Positions 26,076-60,525 of a DNA stretch of 64,000 nt are shown here, one piece after another; position 1 is the first letter of the stretch, and each line of letters starts with the position of its first letter. Origin of the DNA: Polytrichum commune (taxonomy: Eukaryota; Streptophyta; Polytrichopsida; Polytrichales; Polytrichaceae). The position numbers and the translations under genes were made by a program. The DNA lies in contig OX485806.1 of assembly GCA_950295325.1 (NCBI GenBank), forward strand, positions 9,734,001 to 9,798,000. Direction: 5' to 3'. The notes beneath the pieces are model-generated. The model was not told the origin of the DNA. It did no database searches and saw nothing but the letters and a program-made list of their open reading frames with translations.

Positions 26076-26231
26076 CGGCTGTTCCACACAAGAGCATCTT
26101 GGAGGCACCCTTAGGTTGATTACTTGTTGTAGGTTGTAGCATGATTTCTATGGACCATGGGCTGGTGTCACCGAACCCTAGAGAACCGCAAGGTGGTGCA
26201 AATGTGTGTTAGGTAGGAATATTATACGGCG

Positions 26232-32200: not shown

Positions 32201-35063
32201 TTGCTTACAAGACGTTCCATATTCGGTAAGTTTGCAGTGTATGCTTGGAGGTAGTGTGAAGGTTTGGACGAAGAACGTTCCCTATCGGTTTATTGAAGGT
32301 CAAACTCATTTTGGGATGCCAAGAGGCGATAAACTGAGTTTGACCCATTAATGACCGAAATAGGTTGCTCTTCATTCAAATTTCGTTAGTATCTCCGAGA
32401 ATGCACCACAAATGGAAAGAAAATATTGATGCCAACAACCAATGAAACATAGGGGATCAACTCCCAACAAAAAAAATTTGAAGTAAGGATAACTCAAATG
32501 AATACAATCTTGTTGCGAGGAGCTTCGAGAGATGAGTGCATTGATATATTCTTGTGACAAAGCTCATGCATGAATAATAATGATCTTGTCATAAGTTATC
32601 GGAACCTTATTTTGTCGATGCCCCTGCTTATTATACAGAAGTTACCCCCAGTGTTAAAGCCTTGCAACAAACTGGCATGATCCTGCCATTCCAGCCATTG
32701 GCACTGACGTTTGAGGACATGTCCTACTTTGTTGACATGCCGGCCGAGATGAAAACCAATTTGAAGTTGAATACAAACCGGTTGCAATTGTTGCGGAACA
32801 TTAGTGGCTCATTTCAGCCGGGTGTGCTCACGGCACTCATGGGCGTCTCGGGTGCGGGAAAAACCACACTTATGGACGTGCTTGCGGGGCGGAAAACGGG
32901 TGGCTACATTGAGGGCGCGATTAAAATTGCTGGGTATACAAAAATCCAAAAAACATTTGCTAGAATTGCAGGTTACGTTGAGCAGACCGACATCCATTCA
33001 CCACAGGTTTGATATAATTTGCCTTGTCGTGTCTTGTCAACATATTTACAATTTGTTGACCCTGAAGAGTTCCAGAGAGTTTATTTCTATTGATTTGTCC
33101 CGATGAGACATTTTGGAATGGGTGGATAAGGATGCAGATATTTGAATCCATTTTGGTTCAAATACTCTTCTGGCAATTATACATGGCATATGAAAATATT
33201 TGTGTAAGACTTGAATCAGAAATCTTAAAAGGAGTTATTTCTCTTCAATTACTGTAGGTACCACAAATGTGTAGAAAATCTATGTGCAACCAGTAGTCCC
33301 TTTTCACTCCTTCGTTGCAAGTCCACTTGGAGCCTTTTTGATAAAAACAACATCATGTTTTACTGATTCCAAATAGGCCTCTAAGACTAATCATGAATGT
33401 AATCGTTTGAATTCAAGTTTGTGTTTGTTTTATTGTTTTACGAGTGCCTCTTGAAACCCATTACAAATGCGCTACAACAAAATACACGAGCATCTAACAA
33501 ACGAACTCATGGAATCTCATCAATTCCCACTTTGGTTGGTTCTCTTTCCAGGTCACAGTTTACGAATCTTTGATATACTCCTCGTGGCTAAGGTTACCCC
33601 GCGAGGTAAACGCAAAGAAGCGCAAGGTCTTTGTGGAAGAGGTGATGAATCTCGTGGAGCTTGACAATCTCCGGTATGGCCTAGTGGGACTCCCCGGCAA
33701 CACGGGACTCTCCACGGAACAAAGGAAACGGCTCACGATAGCCGTCGAGCTCGTGGCCAACCCTTCCATCATCTTCATGGACGAGCCGACCTCGGGGCTT
33801 GACGCGAGGGCGGCTGCCATTGTGATGCGGACGGTGCGTAACACGGTCAACACGGGGCGCACCGTGGTTTGCACAATCCATCAACCGAGCATCGACATTT
33901 TCGAGGCGTTTGATGAGCTCGTGCTTGTGAAACGGGGCGGTGAAATCATTTACGTGGGTCCGCTCGGAAAATACTCGAGCGATTTGATCTCGTATTTCTC
34001 AGAGATTCCCGGCGTGCCCCCAATCGCATCGACATATAACCCCGCAACGTGGATGTTGGAGATCACGACCCCGGCGATGGAGACGAAGCTCGGGGTAAAC
34101 TTTGCCCAAATCTACACAAGCTCAGAGCTTTACAAGCGGAACAAGATGGTGATCAAGAAGTTGAGCGTGCCAAAACGCGGCTCGCAAGACCTCAAGTTCC
34201 CAACCCAATTCTCACAGCCGTCGTTGGAGCAATTCAAGGCGTGTTTGTGGAAGCAAAACCTCACGTATTGGAGGAGCCCGTATTACAATGCCGTGCGCTT
34301 TTTTTTCACTGTGATCGTCGCCATTATGTTTGGATCGATCTTTTGGCAGCTCGGGAACAAGAGGGCGACGCAACAAGACGTGCAAAACGTGATGGGTGTG
34401 TTGTATGCGTCGGTCTTGTTTCTGGGCGTGAACAATGCTTCCAGTGTGCAGCCAGTAGTTTCCGTAGAGAGGTCTGTTTTCTACCGGGAGAGAGCGGCCG
34501 GCATGTACGGGCCCTTGCCTTACGCATTCGCGCAGGCGCTCATCGAAGTTCCTTACATTTTTGTCCAAACGTTAGTTTATGGCATCATTACCTATGCGAT
34601 GATCCACTTCGAATGGACAGTGGCAAAGTTTTTCTGGTACCTTCTCTTCATGTTTTTGACGTTCACCTATTTCACATTTTACGGCATGATGGCAGTCGGG
34701 TTGACGCCTTCTCAACAATTAGCGGCCGTTACGTCTTCGGGATTCTACTCCTTGTGGAACCTCTTTTCAGGTTTCTTGATACCCAAAGCGAGTATGCCGA
34801 GTTGGTGGGTTTGGTACTATTGGATTTGTCCCGTGGCATGGACGCTCTATGGCTTGATCACGTCGCAATTAGGCAATGTTCAGACCCCGTTTTATGCCGC
34901 GGGTTTCGGCGCTCAAATTGCTGTGAAGGACTTCATCACGAGCTATTTGGGATACAAATATGATTGGTTGGGCAATGTGGTTGCAGTTTGTTTTGGATTC
35001 ATGGCAGTGTTTTGGCTGGTGTTTGCATTTTCAATCAAATACCTCAACTTTCAAACCCGTTGA
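26232..35063 (+). CDS. ABCG/PDR-like: Full-size PDR-type ABC transporter (ABCG subfamily)
   Basis: Eight exons, 26232-26706, 27570-27881, 28503-29052, 29244-29403, 30488-30813, 31503-32050, 32639-33006 and 33552-35063, total 4251 bp: 1416 residues and a stop, the usual PDR length. The order is reverse, (NBD-TMD)2. NBD1 has Walker A GPPGAGKST (about residue 155), signature [10 protein letters not shown] (about 299) and [16 protein letters not shown]2 has GVSGAGKTT (about 860), [15 protein letters not shown] and [12 protein letters not shown], then CTIHQPS. TMD1 ([22 protein letters not shown]) and TMD2 ([30 protein letters not shown]) carry PDR hallmarks. Both catalytic sites look intact. PDRs export terpenoids, hormones or other lipophilic compounds at the plasma membrane; the substrate cannot be read. 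ATG 26232 opens the frame. The exon 6 donor (32051) is chosen only by phase. NBD2 and TMD2 sit in one 1.5 kb exon. Confidence 0.93.
26883..27397 (+). repeat. Tandem duplication, ~258 bp unit, in PDR intron 1
   Basis: Two consecutive units (26883-27140 and 27141-27397) share 'AATTTGCTTTGTCATT', 'TTTCAGCCAAGTCAA', 'ATGCATGAAA', 'CTGGATTATG' and 'TTGACAAGAATCTGAT-ATG'. Each unit contains two half-repeats built around 'CAGCCAA-TCAATGCATGAA'. Confidence 0.8.
27893..28502 (+). repeat. Family C dispersed repeat filling PDR intron 2, split by a MITE
   Basis: The left part (27893-28004, 'GGGGAGATTTTGGGCA', 'GTTTCCAAGTCCAACCGGTTA') and right part (28352-28502, 'GAACTTGAACCGGTT', 'ATCTGTAACTTGC', 'TCTCCCTGTTCGCAG') together reproduce the continuous copy at 36998-37230. 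The splice acceptor of exon 3 (AG 28501-28502) is the last two bases of the repeat. Confidence 0.75.
28005..28351. mobile_element. Family A foldback MITE, copy 3 (nested in family C repeat)
   Basis: Begins TAGACTTATCC and ends GGATAACTCTA. The central palindrome includes 'GGTTCGAATGAAGGACATTC' and 'GAATGTTCTTCGTCCAAACC'. Both flanks continue as family C repeat, so insertion was into that repeat. Confidence 0.8.
32149..32496. mobile_element. Family A foldback MITE, copy 4 (PDR intron 6)
   Basis: Carries 'CTAACTCAACATGATTTTTG', 'GTCGGGAGTTGGTTGTTTTG', 'TGCTTGGAGGTAGTGTGAAG', a central 'GGTCAAACTCATTTTGG' palindrome and a terminal 'AAGGATAACTC'. The ends are more worn than in other copies. Confidence 0.75.
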
Positions 35064-38235: not shown

Positions 38236-39727
38236 ACCAACTCGAAGATGAAGCAACACCATAGTTCATGCCAATGACAACATTGGAGTCATCTTTCTTT
38301 CTTTCTTTTTTCTGATTACGCTCAAGCTATTGAAAGCTTGTCAAGTCCAAATCTAGAAGTTCCCAGAAAAATGTAAGTTTGAACTCCCAACTTGAGCTTT
38401 CACACCCTCTATTTATAGGGGGGACAAGGGGACCTAAACCGTTAAACACAATTCAACAGTACCTTTGTTTTGCTTACCTGCCGACTAAGGGGCCATCAAG
38501 AACTGGTCCTTCAAGCCCACATCGATTTGCATAGTAGGTAACCAGGTTTGTTCTATGTAAGTACCACTACCACAAGGCAATGATACCCACTTAAAATTCA
38601 GAGACAATGATAAAAACTCAAACAATGTTGGGTGGCAAGGCAAGCATGGTAAAGTAACAGGAGTAATTGGACCACAAATTAATACACGTGTGCAACAAAC
38701 TACCTGAGAGTTAACATATCACTAGATTGGGATTGGAGTGAGATGAATTTGTCTTGGGTGAGGTAAACTTCAGAGTCATCGCTTTATCTTATCGAGGAAT
38801 TTATATCTCCTCCAGTGGCTATGAGAGGGAAGAGGAAGTTTAAATATCCATAAACACTACTAGTGTGATGAAATCGTCCATAGGAGGCCAAAAATGTGAT
38901 GCTACAGAGCATTGTGTTGTCTCAAAGCGGCTCAGTCTTGACAGATACTAATGCTCGTGAGAATCATGAGTTTGCCTCCCCAAGTTGACATCTCCCACTT
39001 TTTCCCCCATGAAGGGTGACTACACTGAGCTTGCTCAACCAAGATATAGAAATAATTTATTTCTTAAAAGAGTTGGATGTTTTATGTAGCCAACATACAT
39101 GTGACATCAAATGAGAGCATCTCCAGTCATCACCAGATTTGACTTCCGATTTGGTATACATGAAAGGCCATAGAATAGCTTCTAGAATGGGAATGGAAAC
39201 AAGAGGCCTGCCTTTGCCCTTGCCCTCAATGACTGCATGACCTGATAGCCAAACAAAATTTTGTAGCACGAAGTAATTACGGACCTCCCTCAGAATAAAA
39301 GGGGAAAGTAGCAAGACCAATACAATACAAACCCAAGAAATGGATGATGGCCAGGAATTCAGTATACAAAGAAAAAGCAACACTGAGCTGGTGAACCCTC
39401 AAGCCAGATGTAAAGAATCAGTAATAGGGGGACTTGTGACGTCCCTCCAAAACTCCCTTTGATATACAGCTTCCCAGGGCCAGGCCTAGGGACCTGCCTA
39501 TAACAAATCTATACAACGCTACCCTCTCCATGTGGAAGGCATTTATAGGTCCCACCACCAATGCACAACCCGCAGAAACTTTCTGTACAGAATGTAATTA
39601 ATCACATTTCTGCTTCACCAGGAATCTGCACATATCAATCAAATAAATGGAATTTTAAAAAGGAGTTGTTGAATGATTAACCAAGAGTGTAAACAGACTG
39701 TCCAAAAGTCCTCTCGCAAAGTCACAC

Positions 39728-40173: not shown

Positions 40174-43100
40174 TCATGAAATCGCTTGATCCTGATTGCA
40201 GATGCTCTCCACATTCTCAACTTTAGAAGGTGATCCTGGCACCACCTCGAGTTCTAAGATGCTCTCTGGAACACAACTTTCACAAACGGAATTTCCTGTT
40301 GTGTCATCCACATGACAAATGATGCTGCTGGAACCTCCTCCCCCATCCGTTCCAGAAGGCACAAAGCTTTTGCTACTCGTTGCAGAAATGTCCTCTTCTT
40401 TGTGGGCTTCAGATTCATCCGCTATTTCCAACACCTTACTTGCCTTCAGAAATTCCCCTGCCAAAACGTCAAGCAAAGGCATAGAGGGTCCAGATTCATG
40501 GACATCGTGGTCATTTTGCTTGTCAAGCAACCGGAGTGAAGCCACTTCCCCAAGTAAGCCTTTCAATGGGATTTGTGAGCTTTGACGTTGCAACTTGTAC
40601 TTGGGATCCTCTTTCGCTTCATCAACCCCGCCACAACAACGTCCTGACAAAGCTTCAACATCTTCACAATCATCCCTTATTTCTTGATTTTCCGCACTTC
40701 TGTCTTTCTCTAATGAAAGCCGGGCGACTTCTTCAAGTGCGCCTTTAAAAGGGGGTGTCCCTATACGACTTGCACGGTACATTTTGCGCCGGGAAACCCG
40801 CCTTCCCGTTTTCTCATCCGTGTGCCCTCCTGGCCGAGATTCCTCAAGTACTTCAATCTTCCCTCTCATGCTTTCATTGTCTCCTTGTCGCTCTGCATTT
40901 CTGAGTTCAGGAAAGTTTAGTTTGGCACCGACACCAAACTTTTTCATGGCCACCTGATCATAGGCATGTGCTGCTGCTTCAGCGGTTGGGAAATTCCCAC
41001 AGTTGTCATGTTTCTTCAGAACACTGTCCCAAAAACTCACCTGGAATGTACTCCGGTTTGCATATACACCAAGATACTTGGTGGGCTTCGTCCCACCAGG
41101 GCTTAAAGGGGCTTGACTGGAAGAAGGCGAATCAGGTTCTTCATCCTCATCCTCGAGGGCTTTCACTTCAGATTGAACTGGAGCTTCAGCAATGTCCATG
41201 CCCACCTGTGCCACATGGTCCCAAAAAATTGATTCAAAATTTTATTTTGCAATATAAGCCAGACAGGGCAAAAGAAACCCCCTTTCCAATCGAGTTCATC
41301 CTTTACCAGAATCGTCATGAATCGGTCCCCTACAATTTGCCATTGGTCGATTTGCATACAAAATCAATAATCTCTCTCCACTTGTGGTGCATCCTTGGAG
41401 GTAGTGTTTGAGTTTAAGTGAAGAGCATTATATTTTGGTACACAAAAGTTTGACCCTCAATGATATGCTATAGATTGTTATTCTTGCAAACCTCTACACT
41501 ACCTCCGAGCATGCACCAGAAACTTATCAAATATGGGAGGTGTCGTATGCAGACCAACCAACTCTCAATTGAAGTCCCAATGAGTTAAGGATAACTCTAT
41601 TGTCAGCAGCAAAAATCAAAGTCAACCAATGAAAACATTGAAAGGGATAAATGGTACTAACCTGGCTTGAAAGGGCTTGACTGGAAGAAGGTGAATCAGA
41701 CTCTTCATCTTCATCTTCAAGGATCTTGTCTTCGGCACCATTACTCGGAAGTTGTGCACGCTCCATCACTACATTATTACCAACCACCTTAACAGTTGAT
41801 CTTAATGTCTCTATTTCCTCAATCAGGTTCAATTTTGCTTCCTCCCCAAACTGCCCATAAGCCACCTGTCAACAAAACCACATGCACTTAAACTTGGAAT
41901 CAAACTTAATATACAGTATTTGATCAAAGTCAGCTCAACTTCACTCTAATAGAGCACAAAAAGTACCGGGCCATCCATAAGAGAGGCATGGTTTGAAATT
42001 TGGAAGACTTACACTAATGCTTCACACAAAGATTATCCACTGGAAGTGAGCAGTAATGTGTACACACTCAAATACATCTGGAGCCATTCTTATCAGTACA
42101 TTTAAGATAAATACTCGGGGGCCACACTATTGAGCTCATTTCCATACTAAACCATTGGGGATAATATTGTGGCACAATTTACCAACCCACAAAATCTAAC
42201 ATCAGAGGCCTTCTTGAATCATCACTATGGATCATCATTCAAAAATGGTTTACCTGATCATGGGCACGAGCGGCTTCTTCAGCAGTTAAGAAAGTTCCCA
42301 GGTACGTGTGCTTCTTTGTTGCTGGGTTGTAATATATAGACTGAAACTTGTGACCATTACAGTACACACCACGAAAGTCGGCCCGCCTTGTCATATTACC
42401 TCGGCGGCTTGGCTTCTTAATGACTGAAGCACGAGCAAATGTCCCCTTCTTCGATCTCATAGATCGAAACGAGCTTTTATTATTCAATTGTTGTAGAGGG
42501 GGAGGAGGCACTTCATCTTCATCCGAGCCAGCTCCTTCCGACTCCCTGCTAGCATTTGAAGGCGTGTTTACCACATGTGCAGGCCTACTTCGCTTTCCTT
42601 TCATAGGTTTGCTTTCAGATGTACTATCGTGCCGCACACTCCAAGACTCCCCATCATCCTTACCAGAGGCTTCCGAGTTTGAGTCCATGCCAGTCGCCTC
42701 GCGTGCACCCGCACGACGTGCAGCATCCACAGAACTAAAAACACCAACCGATTGGTAGTCCTTCAGCTTTGGGTCATAACACATCGCCTCAAAATCACCT
42801 GCATCCGTGAGCTGGATCAAGACCTTTTTGATTGACTGCTTCGCTTTCGCTTTCAAGGAGTGGAACGATTCCGGAAAATTTAAAGGAGCCGATGCTCCAC
42901 GCTTGCGGTAGGCAACTTCATCATATGCATGCGCGGCCTCTTCGGGAGTGTCGTATATGCCGATGTATATGTGCTTTTTGGTTCTTGGTACATATATTTT
43001 GGCCTTAAATCGTCCACTGGGAGTTGCCTGCACACCCATATAAGTGCGCTGTGACTTTCGTTTTGCCAAAGATTTCCCTGGAGTTTTCGCGGCAGCTGAG

Positions 43101-46100
43101 GACCGAAACCGTCCAGCATGCTCATCATCTGCAAGAGACTGTTTGGACTTGGATAAAGGCGGTTTTTTACTCGCTTGTCCACTTTTCTCTCCACCCTTCT
43201 CTACTTGGATCTTTCTATCCCTCCGAGTCTTTGGTGGATCAAGTGTCGTTGACTCTTTCAGAGAGTGCGCGGTGTTTTTCTCGGCACTTGGGACGGTCAT
43301 TGAATTCTCAGATTTCCTGCCATCTTTGTCCATCATGGCACGACGCTTTGAGGTCGTTTTATACACTCGTGCGTAATCAGACTCAACATAGCTATCAGCA
43401 AAAGCCCTGACAAGACAATCCAAGAACAGCACACTTATTTAGTTCCCAAGTACGGCTCAAGTATGACTGAATCCTCAACAACAAAGATTTGGAAGCTGGA
43501 CAATTCACAAATGTATGGTACCAGCAATTCAATACTCCAGCAACACCTGTAGTGGACTACACAAATGTGGAGATACTGTTGCAAGTTCAGTGACAACTTT
43601 CACACAAACATTGCAAGAACTTACACTAGGATTTCATTACACTAAACATCTAACTTAGTGTGGCATTGAAATTGGTGTGCCATGATCATTAAAGTGGTCA
43701 TTGTGACTTGTGATGTAGCACGAAGTGTCAAGTGTCATCCTCTCTAATTGCCACCCAGTGATTGCAAGACAATGCATGTGAGTTGATAAATACTGTGGGC
43801 CGCACTAAATCAGATGTTTAATGTAGTGACAAATTTCACAAGGCAAAACCACAACTCCAGCAAGATATGTAGCCCTATCTCATCAACTATGTCAGAACAA
43901 GCCCTGATTGACAGTCTCATTAACAAAAGACCCTCAAGTTTGCAGTTTGAGCGCAGAGTACAGCATAACTAACCTATAAATGTTGCTCTTTCGCTGAGCA
44001 CGCTGAGGTGGTAAACTTCCCTGGCTGGTGATTTCGGGTTCCTGCTTCGCAGCATCCTTCTCTTTCTTCGCAGTTTCCTTCAAGGCGGAAGCTGCCTCCT
44101 TCCCGCTGCCTCCAACATTACCTTTGCCTTTACCACTTGGGGCACGTCGTTTCTTCACAGGTGGAGCCAATTCATCAACTTGCTCAACTTTAGGTTTCTT
44201 TGATTTTAAAATATCTTTGTCTGACTCTGATACAGCTCCAGATTTCCGCTTTACCTTGTGAGGAGGGGACATTTCTGGTGCCACAGTAATCGCCTTCTCT
44301 TGCCCTGAGCTTGAACTACTTCTTGGTGCCTTTGTCATAATAATTTTCTTACTCGAAGCTGCATTAACCAAACATACTGGGATGTATTAAAATATATACA
44401 TATATATAAATAAAAAGCTTGCAGGGAAATAAAGAACACCTAATGTTGACCCACTCACATGACCCCATGAAGGCAAAGTAACATCTCATATCACTCTAGA
44501 GTAAAGTGTTATTTAGTGACTGTTACTACGTTACAATGTACATATCCTCTGAAAAGAAAGGGACTCATCTTCCACAAGGAATGGGAGGAATCCTGAACAA
44601 AGTTTAACAACATGGCATCCTTCAACAAAACGACATGCATAAATCTTCATTACACTCCTTGTGGGTAGTCCAATGAAAAACACAACTAAGCCATATTCTG
44701 TTAATCTGGCAAAGGACAGAATCACAAAACAGCTCTGTGTAATATAATAAGAGCAATAGGAGAAACCTTGAGATGTAGCAGAATTTTTTGAAGGCTCCCG
44801 CTTTTCATTCTTGACCCCAGCTTTGCCAACATCCTCCCATGATTTACTCTCAGCAAGAGGTTTTGAATCTGAAGTAGCCAACCTTGTCCTCTGCAGTTTA
44901 CTTTTCAGAACTTTTGGTTTACTGTTCTCCTGCTTATCCTCAGTGTCTGGAACCTTTCGTTTCAGGACTTTCACTCCACCTCCCTCTGTCTTCTTCTGTG
45001 AGGCCAAACGTTTCTTTTTGAACCACTGTGCAATATCTTGGGCCTTTGGCTTCCTCTTGTTAGCTTCTGTGTTCCCCTTTAAGTTCCTGCTTGCCTGCAA
45101 TCCATCAAGTGATTAATACGAGGACCTCCAACCTAAAGATACACATATCTATACAAATGCAGCCTGTCAGTATGGTTTTTACACTTTGTGAAAATTATTG
45201 CCTCCTTTGAAAGAAGACAATGTACGGCAGGCTTTGGATGCTAGGTTCATCATGCCTGAATTTTTGAAAGGTTCAAGCTCAAGACATACTTTTGAACTAC
45301 ATGAACAAAAGTCCTATCACAACTATCTCCAAAATATGAATTACAGCTATCAATCAAACCCTTGAACCTATATTTGACAACCTATATTGTAGAGCCTCAA
45401 CCTTCATATGCTTCATCAAAGTCACTCTAGTCTCCTAGACAAAGAAAGCTATGGTCAAATCAAACCTCATGCATGATGGTTATCTAAGAACCAGATCCCC
45501 CACCACATACCGCTGTATAGTTTACCTGAATTTCCTTCATTTCAGGGAAATTGAGAGTGGACATAGAGCCCAAATCTAAGGCTTTCTGGTCACGTGCACG
45601 CGCTGCCTCCAACATCGAGTTGTACATACCTACGTACACTTTCTTCCTCATGCTCCGGTCATAAATAGTGGCTTCGAACCTCCCTGACTGCGACTTACGC
45701 ACCCCTGTTAATCGAAACTCTGGATCACCGTTCCCAAGCTCTAATAACTGTTTTTTCTCCTCCTCATTCAACTCTGCGGCAACAAATGGCTCTGCAACAA
45801 ATCCGGGTTTTTGCTGCCTCACATTCTTTCCATCAACCGACTTTCCTTTTGGCAGTAAACAATCCTCTTCCATTTTCACCCTGAACCCTGTCATAACATC
45901 CAATCCCAGTTCCGTGTCAGTGGGGCCATCTGACTCTTCTTCATCTGGGTCAACTAAATCTGACCCAGCCACTGGCAACGCTAAATCCTTCACTTGTATT
46001 TTCTGGTTCTTTTTGCCAGGTTTTTCAGGCCCTTCTTCCTCTTCTATCTCCATCCCTTCCTGGCTGATTGCAAAATTGCTCAACAAAAGCAGGCGATCTG

Positions 46101-49100
46101 GTCCTGATGCCTCCCGGCCTAGCCTTGATGCTGACCAACTCGGTCGAATCAAGTCATCCTTCTTGGGACTTGCATCCTGGTTGGAAACATCTTTGTGAGA
46201 TTGTTTCCGATTCAATCGTTCCTTCGAAAGAGTGCCTGCACTTCTGGAATGATTACTCAAAACCCGTTGTTGAGACGCTTCAGGTACAGCAGCAGCAGCT
46301 ACAGATTTCTCATCCTGTGGATTTACCTTACTGCCGGTTTCAAAACCACCTAACAGATTCAGAGTCTCCACAGGATTTCCAGAAGATTCCACTTTTGTTC
46401 GAACCCCAATTGAGTTGCTGCCATCTGTTGCTGGCAAGGATGACTGAACAATCCCAAGTGTCACCACTTCAGGTTCATCATCTTTCTTTTTCATGGTTAA
46501 TGGCTGGCGTTTCTTCAGTCCAGGACTGTCGTTCAGAAAATCCTCCTCCATGGAATTCGATGATGACCCCACAGCAAAGGGCGAGCTATTAATTCCAAAG
46601 TCAAATTCAGACCCTTGAACAAAGTTGGTGACTGCACTCTTTCCCCGAAAGATCCTTGCAGCATCATCATAGGCCCGGGCAGCTGCCTCCTCGGTCGTGA
46701 ATGTTCCTAGCCATAATCTCTTGCCCTCAGGCGTTCGAATCTCAGCCCCGTATGCTCCCCATGGGCGCTTCCGGACCCCCACAAACCTCGAGAAGAACAC
46801 CCTTCGCCCCTGCATAATTTTAACATTCCAACTTTGTACAGTCAGTTCATTTTCCAGTTCATTCATTCATCGCACCTGGAACACTATGGCTTCCCTGCAC
46901 CTTTCTTAGTTTAGAAGAAATCCCACACTGTTTCTTGATGTGAATTACCTAATAATCAAACCAATATTTCCCAGTACAACTACATAACATTCTTAAGTCG
47001 CCTATTTAGGTTCCAATGAATATGGAGTAATTTTTAGGTACTCCAGATAACCTAAGAATAATTCTATTGAGGACACACCTTAAATTGAATCCTGGTAGCT
47101 GGAAGAACCCTAAGTGTCCAAAGATAGGCAACAATGAGGTGTCGACTAATGCCACTTGACTATGCTTGGCATTCATCCATGTACTCAAGGACCTTGATTC
47201 TTGGAAATATAGAATGTAAAGAGAATTTTCTTACAAATTTTTCTTACGTAAAATGCTCTCTAAAATCTCCAATATGTCAAACTTAAAAACAAGATAGTGG
47301 CAGAAGTCAAGCACACACAATTGCCAGATTACAATAATGTAGTGACAAGCACAAGAGGTAAATAATTCACTTTGAGAAATCAGTACCTGGCCTCGACCCA
47401 TGGAGGAACTGTCTCTTGGAGTCTGAACCTTTGACTTTCGTTTGATAGCCAACCCAGGAATTGCACGTGGTTCCCGAGGCCCACACCGCACTCCCATAGT
47501 GGCCATATCCAATCCTCCAAAATCAATAGTAGGAAGAATACTCAGCTGCTCATATGACCTTTTCCCATTCACCACACCAGAAATGTGCTGCAGACTGCAG
47601 GCCAACCCAACTCTGTTAAGATCTATTGGACCAATATCCACCAAGCATGAAACACTTGGTGCACCCAGTGCTCCTAGTCGCTTCATAGGTCCTCCATTGA
47701 TATAAACCTGACTACTGGGAATATTTGAACGGCACAATTTGTCATGAAGTGGACTTCCACTACGGTGCACTCCTCGAACCCCTCCAGTTGACCCATTATC
47801 CATACCAGCTTTACTTCCAATCGTGGGCCCAGTGTATGGAAGAGAGATGCCGTGACTGCTGAGGCGATTACCCAACTGGGCACGGAAGTGCTCTAACTCG
47901 TCAGCAACCTTAGTGGCAGCCGACCCAAATTTCACTTGAGTATTTCCCATCAAAGTGGGTTCTTGATGCCCACATCCTGTCATCCGGCAACTACTAGACT
48001 CTAGGTTACACTCCAAGCAGATTTTATTGCTTAATCCAATAGTGCTCCCAAAGCTTCGGCCATCATCCTTCAACTGTGAGCATCCTGCCAAGGACAAGCA
48101 AAACCTACATTACTAAACCTACAATGTAACCCATACCTGAAAAAAATAAGCAATACGAAATTTAGCCACAGCCATAAGAATTATCCTCTAACTCAACATG
48201 ACTTTTAAGTTGGGAGTTGGTTGTTTTGCATACAACCCCTTCCATGTTTGGTAAGTTTTTGGTTGCAAAAGAACTAATGAATAATTATATGGGACCACCT
48301 CCCAACAAACAGTCCCATTAAGTTGAAGGATAACTCTATTGTCCAGAGCATGTCACACATAATGTGAGCAATATTGTCATTATATCGGCCCATGCTTAGA
48401 GCAGTTGGCAGTGAAACATTACTTGCAGTGTAAACCTGCAGCTAACAACTAGGTAGCCTTCACACCCCACAACAGCTGAAGAAGCTAAGATACAGTATTA
48501 TAAAAATAAGAAGTCTTTTCCACCGGTAATTGTCTAGTCCATTCTGATTCGAAGTATAGAACATCTGGTCCTTGATATCCTGCTACCCAAGTCTATCACG
48601 GAACTGCAGGATTTTAATATAAGGATTTTGGAAGAAGGGTTGAGCAGATATGAATCTTAGATGACAGAAATGCACCTCCATAGCAATGATCCTAAATGTC
48701 ATGGCAAAAGTATCCTCTTTTCCTATGCACATATTTTTCAAACTACTCTCACAAGAGCTGCTCTTGGCTAGCTTTCTGAGTAATGGACATTATTGCAATT
48801 CCAAAGGACTGATACTCCCTAAATGTGATTGGAGTCCGAAGTTGAATATCATAACCCTGGATACAATCAGAGTGGGAGAGTGGCCAACCTGGAGTTCGCC
48901 TTGTTGCTGATTTTGTGCTGAAGGAACCACCCTCCACAAGCTTGATATCACTGTGAATCTGTCCAGCCATCTTTTTTGCACTTGCAGACCTTTGAAAGAT
49001 GGGCATGCTAAATTCATCCTTCACTATCAAATTTTCGGGCATCGATACAGCCAGTGATGGCTGGTTGATGATCACAGGAGCCCATAGCTTCGGGGGTAAA

Positions 49101-50383
49101 ACAACCTCCATCTCATGTGCAACAGCAGCAGCTAGAATAAGTACCGAGAATTCCCCAAGTTGAGGGTGCTCCATGATTTGCTGGTTTTTCAAAGTAAGGG
49201 GATTTACAGTGAATCCTTTTCGTTGTTTGTGCATTTGACAATATCTGGAAGGCCAACAGCCACAGCTTATTAAAAAGGGGATTTCTCCAAGACACATGAC
49301 ATATCCAAATTGAGCTCTGATGTTCTAGGCAAATGACACACAAGGCCTACAGCTAGCAACTCTTGGTGTACATGAGCAACAAAACAGAATGAAAGGACAC
49401 ATCCAAAAAAAATTATTGTGCCAAAGACAGCAACACAATAGTAACAACAAATGGACAGTATGGAGGAACAGTCAAAACACATACTTGGTGTTCTCAGACT
49501 TGAGAAAGACAGGAAAGCGACACCGATCACGGGTCGGAAACTCCACAAAGTCACACTGCTTATACGGTGCCGAAGGATCCTCAAGAATATGCCAAAGACA
49601 GAATTTGTACATGTGGCCCGAATCCTGCAGACAGTATTGAGAGCAACTCTGCCTCGAGGAATGGCATATATGGCCCGATCGCACCTTTGCAGTGAGTCCA
49701 TTATTACCTGGAGGAGGCCTTGACAGATGTCGTGGCACATTTGTAGGAGGTGGCAAGGGGACTAACCCTCCTCCCACACCAGGTGTCAAATTAGAGGGAG
49801 CAGCTGGAATTCTTCGTTGACCAGCAGCTGTCAATGGTAGTCCTGGTGAGTAAAGAGAGAGATTGGTGGTTAGGGGTGATAGACCAGGGGCCGGAATGCG
49901 GATTCCTGTCGCAGGAGCCAAAAGGGTAGAGGATAATGTCATTAAATTAGAAGAAGGTGGTGGTAGCGACCGATAAGCCACAGGGAGTGTTCCAAGAAGA
50001 GGAGGTTTTATTTCAGGTCTACTAGACTCATTGGGAACTATTACTCTCTGCCCTGGGACAACAGCAGTGGCAATTTGTGTGGGCAATGGTGTGCTTGGAA
50101 ACTCCAGTATTTTTTGACCAGCCAATACTGGAGCCCCCACACCTGAGTGAACTTTTTGTCGCCACACGGCTGTCCTTGCACGAGAAGGCTGAACTGGACT
50201 GCTACTGGCAGAACTGCTAGAAGCCAAATTTCCTACTCCTTCACATTTCGCCTTCGAATCAAGCTCTGCCAGTTCCAACTTGGAAATAAGTGGCTGGGGA
50301 GATTTGTCACTTTCATGGCCAGGGAGATTTATGGCGCTGTCGCTTGCCTCATGTTGAGCTTCAATCTCAATGTGGTCCTCCAT
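40174..50383 (-). CDS. Predicted zf-C3Hc3H plus multi-AP2 protein (five AP2 domains), possibly two adjacent genes
   Basis: Minus-strand exons 50383-49485, 49244-48931 (3' end uncertain), 48084-47387, 46809-45526, 45094-44767, 44358-43974, 43406-42254, 41865-41662 and 41205-40174 can be read in one phase as about 2098 residues. The N-terminal 299 residues are Pro/Ser-rich and end in a zf-C3Hc3H domain (about 234-315), as in KANSL2/INO80D chromatin subunits. Then come one ERF-type AP2 domain (about 645-700), a second (1005-1062), Lys-rich nuclear-type linkers ([21 protein letters not shown]), a third (1423-1482), a degenerate one, a fourth spanning an intron, and a fifth (1797-1854). Phases from 48084 onward fit exactly. 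The weak link is 49244 to 48084: without that splice the frame stops at 48749, giving a 464-residue C3Hc3H protein, and the AP2 part would be a second gene starting within exon 48084-47387. Likely nuclear DNA- or chromatin-binding protein. Confidence 0.75.
40906..41079 (-). other. AP2 domain 5, divergent
   Basis: Reads [19 protein letters not shown], then [17 protein letters not shown] and GAKLNFPE. It resembles domain 4 most. The exon's acidic lead-in ([16 protein letters not shown]) nearly repeats one in the preceding exon. Confidence 0.85.
41291..41600. mobile_element. Family A foldback MITE, copy 5 (intron of the AP2 gene)
   Basis: Contains 'TTTGCATACAAAATCA', 'GTGGTGCATCCTTGGAGGTA', 'CACTACCTCCGAGCATGCAC' and ends 'GAGTTAAGGATAACTCTA'. 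The left end is worn. Confidence 0.7.
41815..42379 (-). other. AP2 domain 4, split by an intron
   Basis: Exon part 42379-42254 reads [18 protein letters not shown], then [17 protein letters not shown]. The next exon (from 41865) completes it with [14 protein letters not shown]. The intron falls after DQ in phase 0; the other four AP2 domains have no intron there. Confidence 0.85.
42692..42835 (-). other. Degenerate sixth AP2-like repeat
   Basis: Reads [15 protein letters not shown], then [20 protein letters not shown]. It aligns with the [10 protein letters not shown] and [18 protein letters not shown] parts of domain 2 but lacks the first strand and the LNFPE end. Confidence 0.55.
42869..43048 (-). 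other. AP2 domain 3, divergent
   Basis: Reads [19 protein letters not shown], then [20 protein letters not shown] and SAPLNFPES. Complete AP2 layout with SGRFKAKI in place of the ERF strand 2. Confidence 0.87.
43640..43828. mobile_element. CACTA-like MITE, about 189 bp (intron of the AP2 gene)
   Basis: Left CACTAAACATCTAACTTAGTG is mirrored by CACTAAATCAGATGTTTAATG then TAGTG on the right. Related to the copy at 39728-39941. Confidence 0.7.
45541..45714 (-). other. AP2 domain 2, divergent
   Basis: Reads [19 protein letters not shown], then [17 protein letters not shown] and STLNFPE. It keeps the GVR start, three-strand spacing, GMY turn and LNFPE end, but not the RPWG and AEIR residues of ERFs. 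Confidence 0.85.
46621..46788 (-). other. AP2 domain 1, ERF type
   Basis: Reads [18 protein letters not shown], then [18 protein letters not shown] and RGKSAVTNF: the full YRG and RAYD elements of plant ERF domains. The only one of the five with a normal ERF sequence. Confidence 0.93.
48177..48338. mobile_element. Family A foldback MITE, copy 6, internally deleted
   Basis: Keeps both ends ('AGAATTATCCTCTAACTCAA' and 'AAGGATAACTCT') and the 'GGGAGTTGGTTGTTTTGCAT' arm but has lost the central ~200 bp. It lies in the intron that decides whether the C3Hc3H and AP2 parts are one gene. Confidence 0.75.
49215..49684 (-). other. zf-C3Hc3H domain (KANSL2/INO80D type), split by an intron
   Basis: The frame 49684-49485 gives C/H ligands in [30 protein letters not shown] and RDRCRFPVF. 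The last ligands (KYCQMH) come from 49244 onward, joined through a consensus GTATGT donor at 49484. Spacing matches the family: C..H, an ILEDP-AP-KQC core, then C and C..H. Confidence 0.8.
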
Positions 50384-53300
50384 GTTTTGCTGCTTCACCT
50401 GCAAACTGCAGAGGTAGTGCTCATATTTTAGTTTAACAAGAGCAATCTAAAAGTCATTGTCACCACAAAAGAGAGACTTTTGCCCTCACCATCCATATGT
50501 CTAAGACCAGATACTCTTGATCATTGAGAAAGCAGCATCAAACAGTATTCTCAACACAATCATCCTGCTGCAAGTAACAGGTAAGGGAACTCTTACTGAC
50601 CCTCACTCTAAGATTCACTTTCAAAGGGAGGAATTACAGAGACACAAGAGAATGCACCATGTAGTTTGATGGCAAAGGGTGGAAGAGATGACTGGAACCA
50701 TTTCACAGGCTTTTGACATGAATGGAAGTGTACATACTATATCACATGCAACACAGAGACCCTCCAGCAACGCTGATGCATGTTTGGTATTCATGCAGAA
50801 TACTCCGATGGAAAATTTCTGTTCTCTTCACTGTGAAACAACTCTTCTGCCTATATGTAAAGGGGAGACAATCGTAATGGTTTCTTGAAGCTTTCTTTAT
50901 TTGAGGCTCTTTCTGAAAAATAATCACTGGTTTTGTATTTCACGCCACTTTCTTGTCTCATCCTGGCACTTGATTTTACGACTAGATGAGGATCATACAC
51001 TGGGGGAAAAGATAGAAGGCTTTTTTTTCCTTTTTGTTGAGGCTCTTCATGATCTCAACCTTGTCCCCTCCATACAGAAACCCTTCAGATCTTTACACCC
51101 ACTAAAGTCCAAATGGAAGTTGATGACAACTGACTTGATTGATATGGTTATTTTTTATTGTAGTTTTTAGAGTCAGAGATTAGTATGTCGATTTGGTGAC
51201 AGAGGATTCAAAACTTTGAAGGAGCAAGTTTTTAGTTGAAGTGGCAAACATGCACTTGCCACCATCCTGCAGTAGTGGTAATTGTTACTTGCAGTATTTG
51301 AAAAAACAAACAACTAGGCACAACATAAATTAGACTGCTCATCAGATCAAGGTACTAATGAGGGAAACATTATTGCACTTTCAGTATGGACCCCAGCCCT
51401 GAGTTCTCAGAAATCACTGCCAACTAATGCCAACAATTGACAAAGCCCCACACCATTGAGGATGACTTCTTCCACTGGCCGTTAAGTTCATAAGAAAACT
51501 ATGGTGCAATCAATACTTCAAGGTCAGACACTCATGAAACAGATGCATACATGGGCATAGACACCCCACGATGCATATATGCATATTTGTCCCAGATAAT
51601 GCAGATTAAGACTCTAGAATTCAATGCCAGACCAATTTTCTCTCAAACTGTATTTACAAATGAATAAAACCAGACATAAGGAGGTAGATTGCTCCACAGG
51701 AGTGCAATTCTAACATGTACAATTCTCTATCTAAGTGTTGAACTTATCAATTAAACACATGCCTCATTTTCGGACCCCTCTCCAGGGAAGCATCTAGTAC
51801 ATGTAACTGCAATAAGCTCAAAATCAAAGAAGTGTTTTACAGAAAAAGAGAAGTTTAGATAGGTAGGGATGTAAGGATGTACCTCTTGTTCCCCCTTCAC
51901 CTCCAAATCAGGCTTGGTACACCCAAAAGAAGATTTCAACACCAGCCACAGCACAACAAGCTGCCATCCTTTTTTCTTCTGAGTGGCTCTCAACCCGAGG
52001 CCCTTATTACTGCTCAGGACTGTGAACTACTTAATTGTACCTCTCAAATCCTAATACTTCTCCATGCATTTAGACTGTTCCTAGAAGAGGATTCTTGGGC
52101 ATCGTATCCAGAAGATATTCTGCTGCAATCCAGTCAAAGCAGGTCCGCAGTCATGGAAGAGAGGAAGCAATACTTGGAGTTCTCCGTTTCCACTGAGTTA
52201 CATACAAGCCTTTCCTCTTCCAATCTCCAAACCCTAAATGGTTACCATCCCTGATGCCCCATGGCTGCCTATATAGACCAGATTATGCGGATTTGAACTC
52301 TTGTCGATCTCTGAAGGACATCATTTGATCATGATTAAGTGTGATACTGTAGTGCACAGTACCTGAAAGTGCTGGTGACCCATTCTCAATCTAGTGCTTC
52401 CTGTACCCCCATGGATCTCAACACACAAAATGCTCTTTCTCTGTACCCTGTTTCCTGCCTTTCTAGTTTGCAAGACAGCTGGGAGTATGAATAAACAACA
52501 GCATCCCCGAGTGCTGTAGCAACGCCGCTAGATATTGCAAGCCTCTGTAATATTGTCCTCGATATCCACATATATTTTGTGCGTTATGCACCCCTGCCAG
52601 TAGTAATTTTTGTCAAAACTCCTGTTGGCTTTGACCAAAGTGAAAAATGTTCCACAAACATGCAAGTCAAACCAAAATAGCTGTCCTGGTATTCCAAGTT
52701 ATTATGATTCAACCACCCCCTGTTGCAGCTGCACGGATCTCTGAAATTTGTCATGCCAGTTACGACCAGGATTTCCAATGTTTCCAGCTGCAAGGGAAAT
52801 CCAATGAAGCTCCATTTCAATTGGATTCAAGAACTCCACTTCCAATTCAGATAAGCATGTTACGGATCAAGACATTCACTGCCACCCATGTATAGCTTTG
52901 TAGAAGATGAAACTATGCTGACAAAATCCACAAGATGCACTACAGACCTTAGAACACTTGTCTGTACTATCGCTCCTTCATTTCCCATCCACTCTGCAGT
53001 CAACCGCCCAGTTTGCCCCTGTTTTTCCCAAAACCTGTTGAATATCTTCCCATAGTGCTAAAACCTACTCTTCATCCAATCCCATTCGCTCCTCGATGCA
53101 TCTAAGGTCGAAAAACCAGAAACAAACTCCCTTGCCAAGGCACACATGGTGCAATATTGAGTGAGTAAACACTTCCAATCCCACCGTCCACTGATAGAGA
53201 GGAGCTGGCTATCTTGCGCCTAAAACTCCAATTATAGTGATTGCAGCTGTGACATACAACAACAACACAGTCATGATCAATATCCGTCAATTTTACCCTA

Positions 53301-55504
53301 ATGCACAGACACGAGCTGTGTATATTGCAGTAATTATCACTCACAGATAATGCTGCAGCCACAAGACAAATCAAGCCATCATCTACCTCTCCAGTACTCA
53401 TGGTAGAAAAATTCTCAAAAACATGGAACAACATTGTCAGCTTCGACAAAAGGGCATCGTCATCGTGAGTGACTATGTCATCTACTCCAGAGTGTTTTTG
53501 CTTGGACTAGGTCTCCAGAGACCAGATAGAGAGAACACAACCAATCTTATGCGGCAACCTTCACAATATCACAATCTTACAGGACGAGTGGACGCAGCAG
53601 CAAACCACATATTCGAATCGTCATCAACATGTGTACTGTATGTCGTGTCCAGTGCAATCAATCATACATGGCCCATACACCATACTTATGGGACCCGCTT
53701 TTGTTGATGATTTCATTCCGGCCACCTTTTGAAACTGCGGTTCAGAAATAGTAGCTACTACTACTAAAGGAAAGAGTGTAGGCATCCGGGATCTAGCTTT
53801 GTGACATCCATTTCTAGCAACGCTTAGTAATTGTGGTGTTCTCCGCATTCAATCACTAGCGGCGCTGAAATTCAATGTGCAGTTTACCCGGTCGACATAG
53901 CGCCCTGATGAATTGCAGGTCCACAGCACCCAGCTCCTCCATCATCTTCACATAGGCATGATGGGTGCATACAGCCATGTCCAGACATTGCACTACCCTC
54001 GTACCCAAAGGAGGGGGCCGGGGACAACCAAGCAATCAAGTCAGCCCTAACCTTCGAGCTTTTCATCACAAATTGTTGGGACTGGGACTACTGCAGCAGC
54101 AGCCACGTGCACGAAAGCTACAATAGGACTACTGCTGCTGCTGCTCCCTCTTCTTCTTGCTGCAATAGTAATAATAATAATGGGTTTGTCAAAAAGATAC
54201 AGCTGAATTTCCCACTCTGCCATCATCATCACAACGAATTCGGAGATTGACAGGGGCGAGTGTGTTGGTGGGGTGACCCTTTTTTCCTGTCTTGCGGAAT
54301 CTTCGTCGTCAGTGGTAGACTGAGTCCTGGCCAAACGGGAGAGACGATCAAACCACATGGGTGGCACCAATTGGCGACCCATGGAGGGGCCCTACAAGAT
54401 ATATGCATAACCAGAAGAATTCCCGCTCTCGAAAAGAAAGAGGAAAGGAAGGAGGCGGGATCGAAGGAAGGCAGAAAGGGAGGGAGGGATAGAGAAATTT
54501 CAGGATTGTCAACAACGAAGGAGGATTGTTGGAGGAAGAAGAGGAATAGGAATAGGAGGAGATATAGTCGAAGCTGTTATGCTGCTGCAAGCCGGAGGCG
54601 GAGGGAGGGGAAAGGGAAGGGTAGGGTAAACATCCCATTCGGTGTACCTACGGGAGTTCCAAGCGGAAACTGGCTTTCTCGAGATTCGAAGCGGAACAAG
54701 GAAGAGAAGGCTCTCTCTCAGAAGGAAGCGGAGGTCCCGAAACAAACAACCCGGTGGTCATGTATGTCTGTAGTTCCGGGTCCTTGTTTATGGCGTCTAT
54801 CCCAACAACAAGCTATAAGCGCCGCAACAACAACAACAACAACAAGCTGCCGCTCGCCCTTCATGCCAATCGCTTCGACAATATCAACAACAACAACAAT
54901 AACAACAACAAAAGAAAAGAGACCCAAGTCTACCAACTGGACCCAACCAAAAAGGGAGGAGACCCACCCAAGAGTCAAGCCGTCGAACACCACACACACA
55001 CTCATACCCATACCTGAGATGATTACTTACTTACCCAGCTTACCACATAACCCCGAGATTCCTGGAACTAACCAACCACAACACCACCACCACCACCAAA
55101 CAACACCAAAAATCCCCCCGCTCCACACCACACCATAACCACACCATACCAAACCATACCCCGCAGCAGCAGCAACAGCAACAACATAAACATTAACACA
55201 AAGCTAAACTAAACTCGAATATCCTAATAGCTCCCCTGCTCCACTCCACTCACTCCACTCACTCAACTCAACTCCACTCCACTCCCTAGATCCTGCTCCT
55301 CCCCTTGGTTACCTTACCTTAACCCGCAAACCCCTTCACCACTCCCCCGAATCTGCACCAGTCTTGTTTATGCTTCCGATGCTTGTGCTACTCCGCGTCG
55401 CTCTCTTAGAAACCTGGAGCTGGCCCCGTCGCTACGTTAGATCTGGCAAACCTGGGTCCAAGCCCTCCGACTGCCTTCCGCTGCTGCTGGAGACTGATGA
55501 TGAA

Positions 55505-55533
55505 GAGAGAGAGAGAGAAAGAGAGAGAGAAAG
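55505..55533 (+). repeat. GA microsatellite (CT on the minus strand)
   Basis: GAGAGAGAGAGA run with AAAG interruptions, next to the GC-rich stretch. Confidence 0.9.
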
Positions 55534-55559
55534 GCGAAGCGAAGCGAAGAGAGAGACAA

Positions 55560-55900
55560 CAGAGGAAGGAGAGAAAGAGCGAAGGCGGCTCGGCTCTCTT
55601 CTCGCGCTCTGCCTGCTGCCTGCCGTCGTCTGGGCACACTGCTGCCCAACCGACGGCTCTCGACGTCCGTGCCCTTTCGTCGCCCCCTGTCCCCTCGTGC
55701 CTGCGCTCGTGTGGACGACACTCGCGGCCCTCGTCGCGGCGGGGCAGGCAGACGGGATGCGGGTGGACGGAACCCCATGATTTCGTCGACGGCGCTTGGA
55801 CGAGCGTGGACGCGGTGAGGTGACGGTGCGCGGTCGTCGAGGCAGCCACTGCGTCCGGCGCGGGCAGCGGAGGGCGTTCTGCGGCGTAAGGGGACTGGAG
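55560..55900 (-). promoter_or_regulatory. GC- and CpG-rich block, candidate promoter
   Basis: Clearly richer in G+C and CpG than the AT-rich DNA around it, and open in several frames on both strands because of that composition. Its place upstream of the CT-rich leader suits a promoter for the minus-strand gene. A short GC-rich exon is an alternative. Confidence 0.4.
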
Positions 55901-55914
55901 TCTGGGTTAGTAAA

Positions 55915-58400
55915 GCTAGCAGCGATTGATGATTGGGTTGAAGCTTGTCTAGGACCCGGTAGTATAGCTGGTGCTGATGAACCTGCTCGTGGTTTAACCC
56001 TTCGTGGTCTAAGGGGTACTAGGCTCCATGTGTGACCTACATGCACTCCATCTATGAGCCCTTCGCACGGAGTTCCTCTTATAATATTGTAAAAACACTT
56101 CAGTCTACTATATTATATTCGGGAATTTCGGAACGGCATGTGTGTTGATGCAATCGCCGGTTCAAAGTTTTGAACTAGCCAGTCGAAAGTGCGACATCAA
56201 ATGTGTTAAGCAGAAGGAGGGGTCGGTGCAAGTGACCTGATGAACTGTGTTGCAATTGGTGATTGAGTTGAGGTTTGTCTAGGACCCGATAGTATATGTG
56301 GTGGTGCTGGTGGAGATTTTGTTCGTGGTTTAACCCTTCGAGGTCTAAGGGGTACTAGGCTCTCAATGTGCGACCTACATGCACTACATCATGAGCCCTT
56401 GGCACAGAGGTCTATTATAATATCATAAAAAATCAGTACGCTATATTATATTTTGGAATTTCATAACAACAAGGCTGCAAGTGTGTTGATGCAATCACCG
56501 GTTCAAAGTTTTGAACTAGCCGGTCGAAAGTGCGACATCAAATGTGTTAAGCAGAAGGAGAGGGGTGGGTGCAAGTGACCTGATGAATTGTGTTGCGATT
56601 GGTGATTGAGTCGAGGTTTGCCTAGGACCCGATAGTATATGTGGTGTTGATGGTGGAGATTTTGTTCGTGGTTTAACCCTTCGAGGTCTAAGGGGTACTA
56701 GGCTCTTAATGTGTGACCTACATGCACTACATCATGAGCCCTTGGCACGGAGTTCTATTATAATATCATAAAAAATCAGTACGCTATATTATATTTTGGA
56801 ATTTCGGAACAACAAGGGTGCAAGTGTGTTGATGCAATCGCTGGTTCAAAGTTTTGAACTAGCCGGTCGATAGGGCAACATCAAATGTGTTAAGCAGAAG
56901 GTGTGGTGGGTGCAAGTGACCTAATAAATTGTGTTGCAATTGATCGAGTTGAGGTTTGTTTAGGACCCAAAAGTATATGTGATGGTGGTGGTGGTGGTGG
57001 TGGTGGTGGTGGTGGAGATTATGCTTGTGGTCTAAGGGGTACTAGGCTCTCAATGTGTGACCTACGTGCACTATATCTATGAGCCCTTGGCATGGAGTTT
57101 TATAATAATATTATCAAATTCATATGTTATATTGTATTTGGGGTTGTGGAACTTCTCTAGGGTGCATGTGTGTTGATGTAGTCGTTGGTCCAAAGTTTCG
57201 AAACATATGCCTAGCGACAATGGTATGTTGAGCAAGAGGTGTGGGTGTAGATGATTGGAATCTCAATTTATTAACTTAGATGCAGTTGGTGATTGGGTTG
57301 AAGTTTGTTTGGGACCCAATAGTATTTGTGGTGGCGGTGTAGATTTTGTTCATGGTGAACTCTTCAAGGTCTAAGGGGTACAAGGCTCTCAATGTGTGAC
57401 CTACATGCACCATATCTATGAGCCCTTGGCACGTAGTTTTATAATAATACTATGAAGATTGATATATTATATTATATTATGAAATATTGGAACATTGAGG
57501 GCACATGTGTGTTGATGCAGTCACCGGTCCAAAGTCCAAAAACGATCAGTCGGCAACAAAGATATGTTAAGGAGAAGGTGTGATTGGAATCTCACTTGTT
57601 AAACTTAATTGTGATTGGTAATTGGGTTGAAGTTTGTTCGGGACCTGATAGTATAGCTAGTGGTGGTGGTGGAGAATGTGCTCATAGTGAAGGTCTAAGG
57701 GGTACTAGTAGGCTCTCAATGTGTGACCTACATGCATTATATATATGAGCCCTTGGCATGGAGTTCTAATAATGCCATAAAAATGATCTACTATATTATA
57801 TTTGGAGTTTTGGAACGGTGAGGGCGCATGTGTGTTGATGCCAGTTTAAAGTTTTAAATGGTCAACCATCCACAATGGCATGATAGACAAAACATGTAGG
57901 TGCGGGTGACTAGAATCTCATTAATAAACTTAGTTGCAATTGGTGATTGGGTTAAAGTTTGTCTAGGACCCACCTAATAGTATATATGGTGATGGTGGAC
58001 GAGTTGTTTGTGTTTAACCCTTCAAGGTATGAAGGAACTAGGTTCAATGTGTGACATATGTGCATTACTTCTACGAGCCCTCACCAAGTTTTAAAATCAT
58101 ACCATGAAACCAATCTATTGTTCATTTTCAAATTTTGGCAAGGCAAGGGCACATGGACATTAATGCAATCGGCAATCCAAAGTTCCAAAATGGCTGGCCA
58201 GTGGCAACGCCAGAACTTGCAATTGCGAGTGACTAGAACATTGCTTGATAAACCTAAGTGTGATCGATAATTGGGTTGAAGGTTGTCCATGGCCCGGTAG
58301 TGGGTAGTGGTGAAGTTGCTCGTGCTTAACCCTTAAAGGTGTAAGGGGCTCGGTTTGTAACCTATATAGGTCCAATGCTTCTACAAATACTCGTTGAGTC
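55915..58400 (+). repeat. Satellite-like tandem array, ~330 bp unit, eight copies
   Basis: 'GATTG-GTTGA-GTTTGTCTAGG' starts recur near 55931, 56263, 56603, 56941, 57291, 57618, 57946 and 58268 (spacing about 320-350 bp). Each unit carries 'GGACCCGATAGTATA', a GGTG run, 'GTTTAACCCTTCGAGGTCTA', 'AGGGGTACTAGGCTC', 'TGTGTGACCTACATGCAC', 'GAGCCCTTGGCA' and 'GTGTGTTGATGCAATC'. Copies 1-3 are most alike and later copies decay rightwards. A (GGT)n expansion occurs at about 56983-57012. Confidence 0.92.
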
Positions 58401-59460: not shown

Positions 59461-60043
59461 CCACGCACCTAGTTATAGGCAAATTCACCAACATTGCATT
59501 GCTAGAGTACATTACCATTACCACAAATGTCTAGTGCCTTGAGCCCGCTCGTATGAGAAGTGGGTACATTAAACATGGTGATTTAGTGTGGGGTGCACTA
59601 ACTTTGGGGTGGGTATTAGTGTGGGTTTCCACACACATGTTTTTTTGTAGTTATTTAGAAGTGCCAACAAGTGTTGTGTGAGTATACAAGGTCTCGTCTA
59701 GGTATGACAAGTGTAGTGATAATACGAGACTCAAATAATATAACACCACACAAAGATTGATCTTTAGATTGAAGTATATTCTTATACCAAACTCAATGCT
59801 TGAGTCAATAACATATCAATACACTTGCAATTTGACTTGAGCAATGAGGTCATTCCATGGCACATAGACTTTACTAGTATCAAAATCACTATCTATCTCG
59901 AAGTACCTATAATTGAATGGTATTGAGAGATAGAGAAAATCAAAATAAAATAATCAATCAATTAATTTTAAAAAACCATTCAAGGTATGTGGGTTTTATT
60001 CAATTCATTTTTCATGTTTTGCAACTTCTATCAATTACAATTA

Positions 60044-60525
60044 CACGACATAAATTTGTGTTGCACTAGCAAATCTACGATGAAACATCAACAAAATCAA
60101 GATTGAAAACCAAATTTGCCCTAGTTTAGTTATGGTTATTGGAAATGCTTGATTGTTGGTTCTTACGACATAAATTTGTGTTGCACTAGCAAATCTACGA
60201 TGAAACATCAACAAAATCAAGATTGAAAACCAAATCTGCCCTAGTTTAGTTATGGTTATCGGAAATGCTTGATTGTTGGTTCTTACGACATAAATTTGTG
60301 TTGCACTAGCAAATCTACGATGAAACATCAACAAAATCAAGATTGAAAACCAAATCTGCCCTAGTTTAGTTATGGTTATCGGAAATGCTTGATTGTTGGT
60401 TCTTACGACATAAATTTGTGTTGCACTAGCAAATCTACGATGAAACATCAACAAAATCAAGATTGAAAACCAAATCTGTCCTAGTTTAGTTATGGTTATC
60501 GGAAATGCTTGATTGTTGGTTCTTT
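60044..60525 (-). repeat. Near-perfect tandem array, four 120 bp units
   Basis: The period is exactly 120 bp: 'TTGCACTAGCAAATCTACGA' starts at 60061, 60181, 60301 and 60421. Units differ by only one or two substitutions (such as TTTGCCC, TCTGCCC, TCTGTCC). The period is a multiple of three, so a minus-strand frame of 169 codons stays open through all four units as a 40-residue repeat. No known protein family is seen. Confidence 0.95.

Follow-up and report, generated by a model that had tools for sequence, protein, structure and literature searches.

A predicted zf-C3Hc3H protein of the moss Polytrichum commune with an array of five AP2 domains and a degenerate sixth unit

Analysis of a 64-kb stretch of the Polytrichum commune genome (contig C4, 9734001-9798000; henceforth the window, to which coordinates given without a contig refer) uncovered a minus-strand gene whose product would combine a zf-C3Hc3H domain (PF13891) with a succession of AP2 domains. 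Five of the latter, D1 to D5, are recognizable as AP2 domains and a sixth, Dx, is degenerate. Judged by its sequence, the gene is very probably a relative of the published TcA3Bz1-type proteins, which share the zinc finger and the AP2 array. On balance we favor the view that it is a single gene and a bryophyte relative of these proteins, encoding a chromatin-associated nuclear regulator some 2100 residues in length. The genome in which the window lies comprises 408 Mb in 64 contigs, C1-C7 being of 42-78 Mb.

The AP2 array is encoded by six exons (A1-A6, 46809-40174), whose joins use AG/GT sites in compatible phases and yield a product of 1461 residues ending at a stop at 40174. Exon A1 (45526-46809) carries D1 and D2; A2 (44767-45094) and A3 (43974-44358) each contribute a piece of the basic linker between D2 and D3; A4 (42254-43406) encodes D3, Dx and the beginning of D4; A5 (41662-41865) encodes the end of D4 and one copy of a 70-nucleotide linker repeat; and A6 (40174-41205) contains the second copy of this repeat, D5, a C-terminal tail and the stop. 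Three further exons, U1-U3 (50383-47387), extend this frame upstream to an ATG at 50383 and result in a nine-exon model of 2112 residues. U1 (49485-50383) supplies the proposed start and most of the zf-C3Hc3H domain and is joined in phase through the donor gtatgtgt, U2 (48889-49244) has the weakest donor of the model (gttggcca) and the U2-U3 junction is its least sure one, and U3 (47387-48084) joins A1 in phase 0 (...MGRGQ/GRRVFF...). All splice sites of the model were picked by hand from the genomic sequence. In a codon-usage test, for which the downstream exons served as training set and the upstream exons as test set before the roles were exchanged, the frame used was the best of six in all nine exons and free of internal stops; the introns scored negatively in their three frames, which is partly automatic because the background came from these same introns. 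An earlier note on this DNA had described a single locus encoding five AP2 domains in six consecutive exons of compatible phase, and both points were borne out, the former by the 1461-residue splice product with its profile and Pfam matches, the latter by the AG/GT joins and the coding frame of the extended model; it had overlooked Dx and the upstream exons with the zinc finger.

The linker between D2 and D3 has a net charge of +46 over its whole length, and this basic character would fit a nuclear protein. We found no EAR (LxLxL, DLNxxP), TLxLF or KGRP/RGRP AT-hook patterns in the model protein. In the C-terminal tail (A6, 40174-40903) two similar 15-residue stretches were noticed by eye and are candidate interaction motifs.

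One alternative to a single gene is a pair of adjacent genes, with U1-U3 encoding a zf-C3Hc3H protein and a separate penta-AP2 protein starting from an ATG near A1 (46866 or 47401). The frame of A1 is indeed open upstream as far as the ATG at 46866 and, were the intron retained, the U3 frame would run on to a stop at 47231. However, the join of U3 to A1 keeps the phase and uses AG/GT sites, the 577-nucleotide intron between them falls inside the 240-804 nucleotide range of the other introns, and the zf-C3Hc3H and AP2 domains are reported within one protein in published relatives, including a Taxus transcript (PMC6781369), so that we regard this alternative as quite improbable.

The zf-C3Hc3H domain (residues 248-306; 49226-49642), which is split by the U1/U2 intron, was recovered both by the genome scan and by a Pfam scan of the model protein, where it scores 42.3 bits against a cut-off of 27, and at the level of the gene model it lies N-terminal to the AP2 array in one gene. 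Searched by sequence against the PDB, the zinc-finger part had no match at E-values up to 10. The zf-C3Hc3H domain is present in KANSL2- and INO80D-type proteins; the P. commune gene has it in common with them and differs in its AP2 array, and we know of no KANSL2/INO80D-like protein with such an array. The genome scan detected one further zf-C3Hc3H match (L100, C1:64378440-64378553), with no AP2 match nearby, which presumably resembles INO80 subunit-D-like proteins. A table in PMC6607013 gives 'INO80 complex subunit D-like' as the A. thaliana entry for KANSL2. No B3 domain was matched by Pfam in U1-U3, A1, A4-A6 or five minus-strand open frames upstream of the gene (51751-52026, 53102-53506, 54047-54391, 55406-55906 and 55432-56112). 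Nor was there any Pfam match over the cut-off in the U2-U3 part, the A2-A4 linker, the same five upstream frames or one downstream frame (39057-39398), and one scanned open frame gave a weak RAD24_helical match below the cut-off.

Each AP2 unit was submitted to Pfam alone, the curated cut-off of the AP2 model being 33.3 bits. D1 (46621-46794; 39.9 bits) and D3 (42866-43048; 36.9 bits) pass it, D2 (45541-45717; 21.2 bits), D4 (41815-42382, split by the A4/A5 intron; 20.4 bits) and D5 (40903-41082; 16.3 bits) match below it, and Dx (42686-42823), situated between D3 and D4, has no match. Five AP2 domains are thus present, although no more than two of the six units reach the threshold singly. Outside Pfam, D1 matches AtERF96 with an E-value of 4.1e-18 and D3 matches the WRI1 chain over two stretches with an E-value of 3.1e-16. 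A profile built from D1-D5 recovered six units when run on the model protein. The five founding units match along its length with 90.5-108.6 bits, as expected by construction, and Dx was found independently at 13.2 bits (independent E-value 3.5e-6), the best score in 2000 shuffles of the protein being 5.4. In pairwise comparisons Dx outscores all 500 shuffles against D2, D3 and D4, and narrowly against D5; it does not do so against D1. AlphaFold2 models of Dx and D5 (predicted local distance difference test scores 75 and 80.5), computed from input alignments that contained the other units, each have three strands and a helix, and the modelled folds look AP2-like. The nine best PDB fold matches of the D5 model are all plant AP2 domains; the best match of the Dx model is also an AP2 domain, weak and amid unrelated chains. 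PHROGs matches to phage HNH endonucleases, obtained for D1-D5 and not for Dx, carry no special meaning for D2-D5 because D1 matches too.

These observations bear on the proposal that the array consists of decaying tandem duplicates of AP2 exons instead of functional units. The degenerate state of Dx and the scores of D2, D4 and D5 under the Pfam cut-off would be in keeping with it, but 1461 codons run without a stop, every exon carries a coding signal and five units match the profile over its full length (a profile built from them), which makes decay of the array as a whole very improbable. More than two AP2 domains share its reading frame, which also sets the protein apart from the usual plant classes. 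ERF/DREB proteins are defined by a single AP2 domain, and of the six units here D1 alone resembles ERF domains; AP2/ANT proteins have two (R1 and R2); and RAV proteins have one together with a C-terminal B3 domain, whereas this protein has more than one AP2 domain and no B3 in the parts scanned.

The AP2/ERF domain of AtERF96 contacts the GCC box through R16, R19, R21, W23, R31, R39 and W41 (PMC7593309). Six of these seven residues are kept in D1, one each in D2 and D4, and none in D3, Dx or D5, the last of which has Asn at the position of W41. Together with the placement of D1 on the ERF/DREB side of the first tree described below, this agrees with the earlier note's division of the array into a single ERF-type domain and four divergent ones after it. 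All seven contacts are retained by 33 of 76 further AP2 domains taken from the genome, at least five by 44 and four or fewer by 32. Two of the genome's AP2 domains, L083 (C6:40676763-40676921) and L094 (C1:40399278-40399433), are similar divergent domains with none of the seven contacts and a long shared branch. Nine AP2 rows of the genome, which were included for their pattern in a selection of 13, read RWRPE in the YRG region; in the RxRPE part only, they resemble the signature RxRPELG/NK/R, which PMC9520294 regards as characteristic of an AP2 clade restricted to mosses, and this likeness would be in keeping with a moss genome.

The contact residues raise the question of whether the divergent units are past DNA binding, so that the array would serve as a linker or for protein interactions, leaving D1 and the zinc finger as the only active parts. 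Consistent with such a role, D2-D5 keep at most one of the seven ERF contacts and Dx none, the W41 position of D5 is altered, and D4 and Dx each have a net charge of -2. Yet the R2 segment of WRI1 also retains just one of the seven, and the structure of WRI1 was solved with DNA; hence loss of the ERF contact set does not show lost DNA binding. Moreover, D2 (+5), D3 (+4) and D5 (+2) are basic, the frames are open and the folds modelled for Dx and D5 are AP2-like. We therefore consider a non-binding array possible but doubtful.

The history of the array was approached through two trees. Of the 105 AP2 matches outside the window 79 were fetched, the remaining 26 being left out by eye, mostly as near-copies in the same cluster; with one place from the A4 search these made 80 rows, of which 76 with at least 41 model columns were used. 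In this first tree the ERF/DREB side includes D1 (98/96), with a weaker fork joining D1 to AtERF96 (80/94), D3, D4 and D5 form one clade (98/88) in which D4 and D5 are sisters (99/89), and D2 and Dx are placed nowhere firmly. A second tree contained 75 other AP2 domains and omitted two long branches, Dx and the AP2 domain L091; it again recovered D3-D5 (100/77), and D2 now joined them (99/88). At the DNA level, a 47-nucleotide stretch at 79% identity is common to the regions coding for D4 and D5. The two copies of the 70-nucleotide direct repeat in the D4-D5 linker, at the end of A5 (41664-41733) and the start of A6 (41100-41169), are 81% identical at a spacing of 564 and show a local duplication at D4-D5, which by itself is no proof of duplication of an AP2 unit. 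Searches of the genome for further copies used U1-U3, A4 and A6 as queries, and their match counts are lower bounds. U1-U3 gave at least three matches, all of them to their own exons, and A6 at least two, itself and D3. A4 gave at least 63 (107 of 122 candidates scored), comprising itself, D5, D2 and other AP2 domains at 1.2e-10 and weaker. No second copy of the gene was found in the genome with these queries. Because D3-D5 group together, and D2-D5 do so after removal of the two long branches, the divergent units D2-D5 were probably multiplied inside the gene.

The earlier note had stated that no plant transcription factor with this architecture had been described, which fails as a general claim. 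Zhang et al. 2019 (PMC6781369) report TcA3Bz1 and relatives with a zf-C3Hc3H domain, a B3 domain and three AP2 domains from Taxus, Ginkgo and Marchantia. The named members TcA3Bz1, Gb_05581 and PTQ32953.1 all have B3, and the evidence includes a Taxus transcript. The same source lists one Ginkgo protein that has three AP2 domains and no other, as well as five Physcomitrella proteins, each again carrying three; two of these five have an N-terminal zf-C3Hc3H domain and no B3. The P. commune gene shares zf-C3Hc3H and an AP2 array with the TcA3Bz1-type proteins, and it matches the kind of the two Physcomitrella zinc-finger members, having the zinc finger likewise N-terminal and no B3 in the parts scanned. 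The B3 domain of the Taxus, Ginkgo and Marchantia members was thus not found here and, as these Physcomitrella members indicate, is not required. The reported number of AP2 domains is three, in contrast to five and a degenerate sixth here. However, the published proteins were identified with a Pfam profile at a threshold of 1e-5, and since only D1 and D3 of the present array would reach 1e-5 alone, weak units in the relatives could be uncounted.

Other plant proteins with more than two AP2 domains have also been reported. Pine PITA_21665 resembles the P. commune gene in having three AP2 domains in one protein and is unlike it in that B3 is present, N-terminal to them, and zf-C3Hc3H goes unmentioned in the available text (PMC11122039). 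Proteins exceeding two AP2 domains are likewise found in the Solanaceae ERF-5 clade (more than three; PMC11508751) and in Rheum (two to four; PMC13158899); these are classed in the ERF subfamily, and the parts available mention no zf-C3Hc3H. The ApiAP2 proteins of Apicomplexa also have several AP2 domains per protein and belong to a distant lineage. A published penta-AP2 plant protein, which the earlier note had named as evidence that would count against it, was not found in the literature searched, part of which consisted of titles and the beginnings of abstracts. The literature searches also yielded no functional study of TcA3Bz1-type proteins and, among the papers listed, no fusion of INO80 subunit D or KANSL2 with AP2, and a search by the names of the TcA3Bz1-type proteins led to PMC6781369 only. 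What is new in P. commune is the unit count, five plus one, which makes the array unusually long, and the history of the array, the combination of zf-C3Hc3H with multiple AP2 domains being already known.

For the protein as a whole we tentatively propose a mechanism that joins chromatin docking to DNA contacts. The N-terminal zf-C3Hc3H part, which is of the KANSL2/INO80D-like kind, may dock on a chromatin complex, and D1, in the manner of ERF domains, would bind GCC-like DNA. D2-D5 could supply weaker or different contacts to DNA or protein, and Dx may be decaying or structural. Several points weigh against the single-gene chromatin regulator as we describe it. The exon joins are hand-picked, one of them with the weak U2 donor, and the model is built on genomic sequence alone. 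Kinship with the TcA3Bz1-type proteins is drawn from architecture, not from sequence comparison. A single origin of D1-D5 is not rejected by the topology test (approximately unbiased test, p-AU 0.178), and D2, D3, D4 and D5 are all long branches, because of which the grouping of D2-D5 could be inflated and its exact order is unsure. Given the WRI1 R2 case, little can be read from the contact residues of D2-D5, and neither the Pfam name 'potential DNA-binding' nor the parallel with KANSL2 demonstrates a function. A bolder scenario, which we consider unlikely, is that a moss KANSL2/INO80D-type subunit gained up to six AP2 units by internal duplication and would thereby bring a histone-modifying or remodelling complex to composite DNA sites, with hidden extra units also present in the 'three-AP2' relatives.

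Some further features were noted in passing. On contig C2, at about 209.1-212.7 kb (L104:1606-5175), a single open frame of 1190 residues has one AP2 domain just at the Pfam cut-off (33.9 versus 33.3 bits). Another AP2-like stretch in it is very weak (1.3 bits), and a KIB1-4 beta-propeller match is likewise weak and below its cut-off. Within the window, plus-strand open frames at 26217-35063 resemble, on visual inspection, the exons of a gene for a PDR-type ABCG transporter, and a minus-strand frame of 171 residues at 60041-60556 is made up of a tandem repeat in which a 40-residue unit recurs about four times, almost unchanged.

The association of a chromatin-type zinc finger with an AP2 array has been on record in plants since 2019, with no functional work found, and since bryophytes are good for knock-outs a direct test is feasible. 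The P. commune gene suggests that such arrays can grow to at least five units by intragenic duplication, and that counts of AP2 units based on profile cut-offs can come out too low.

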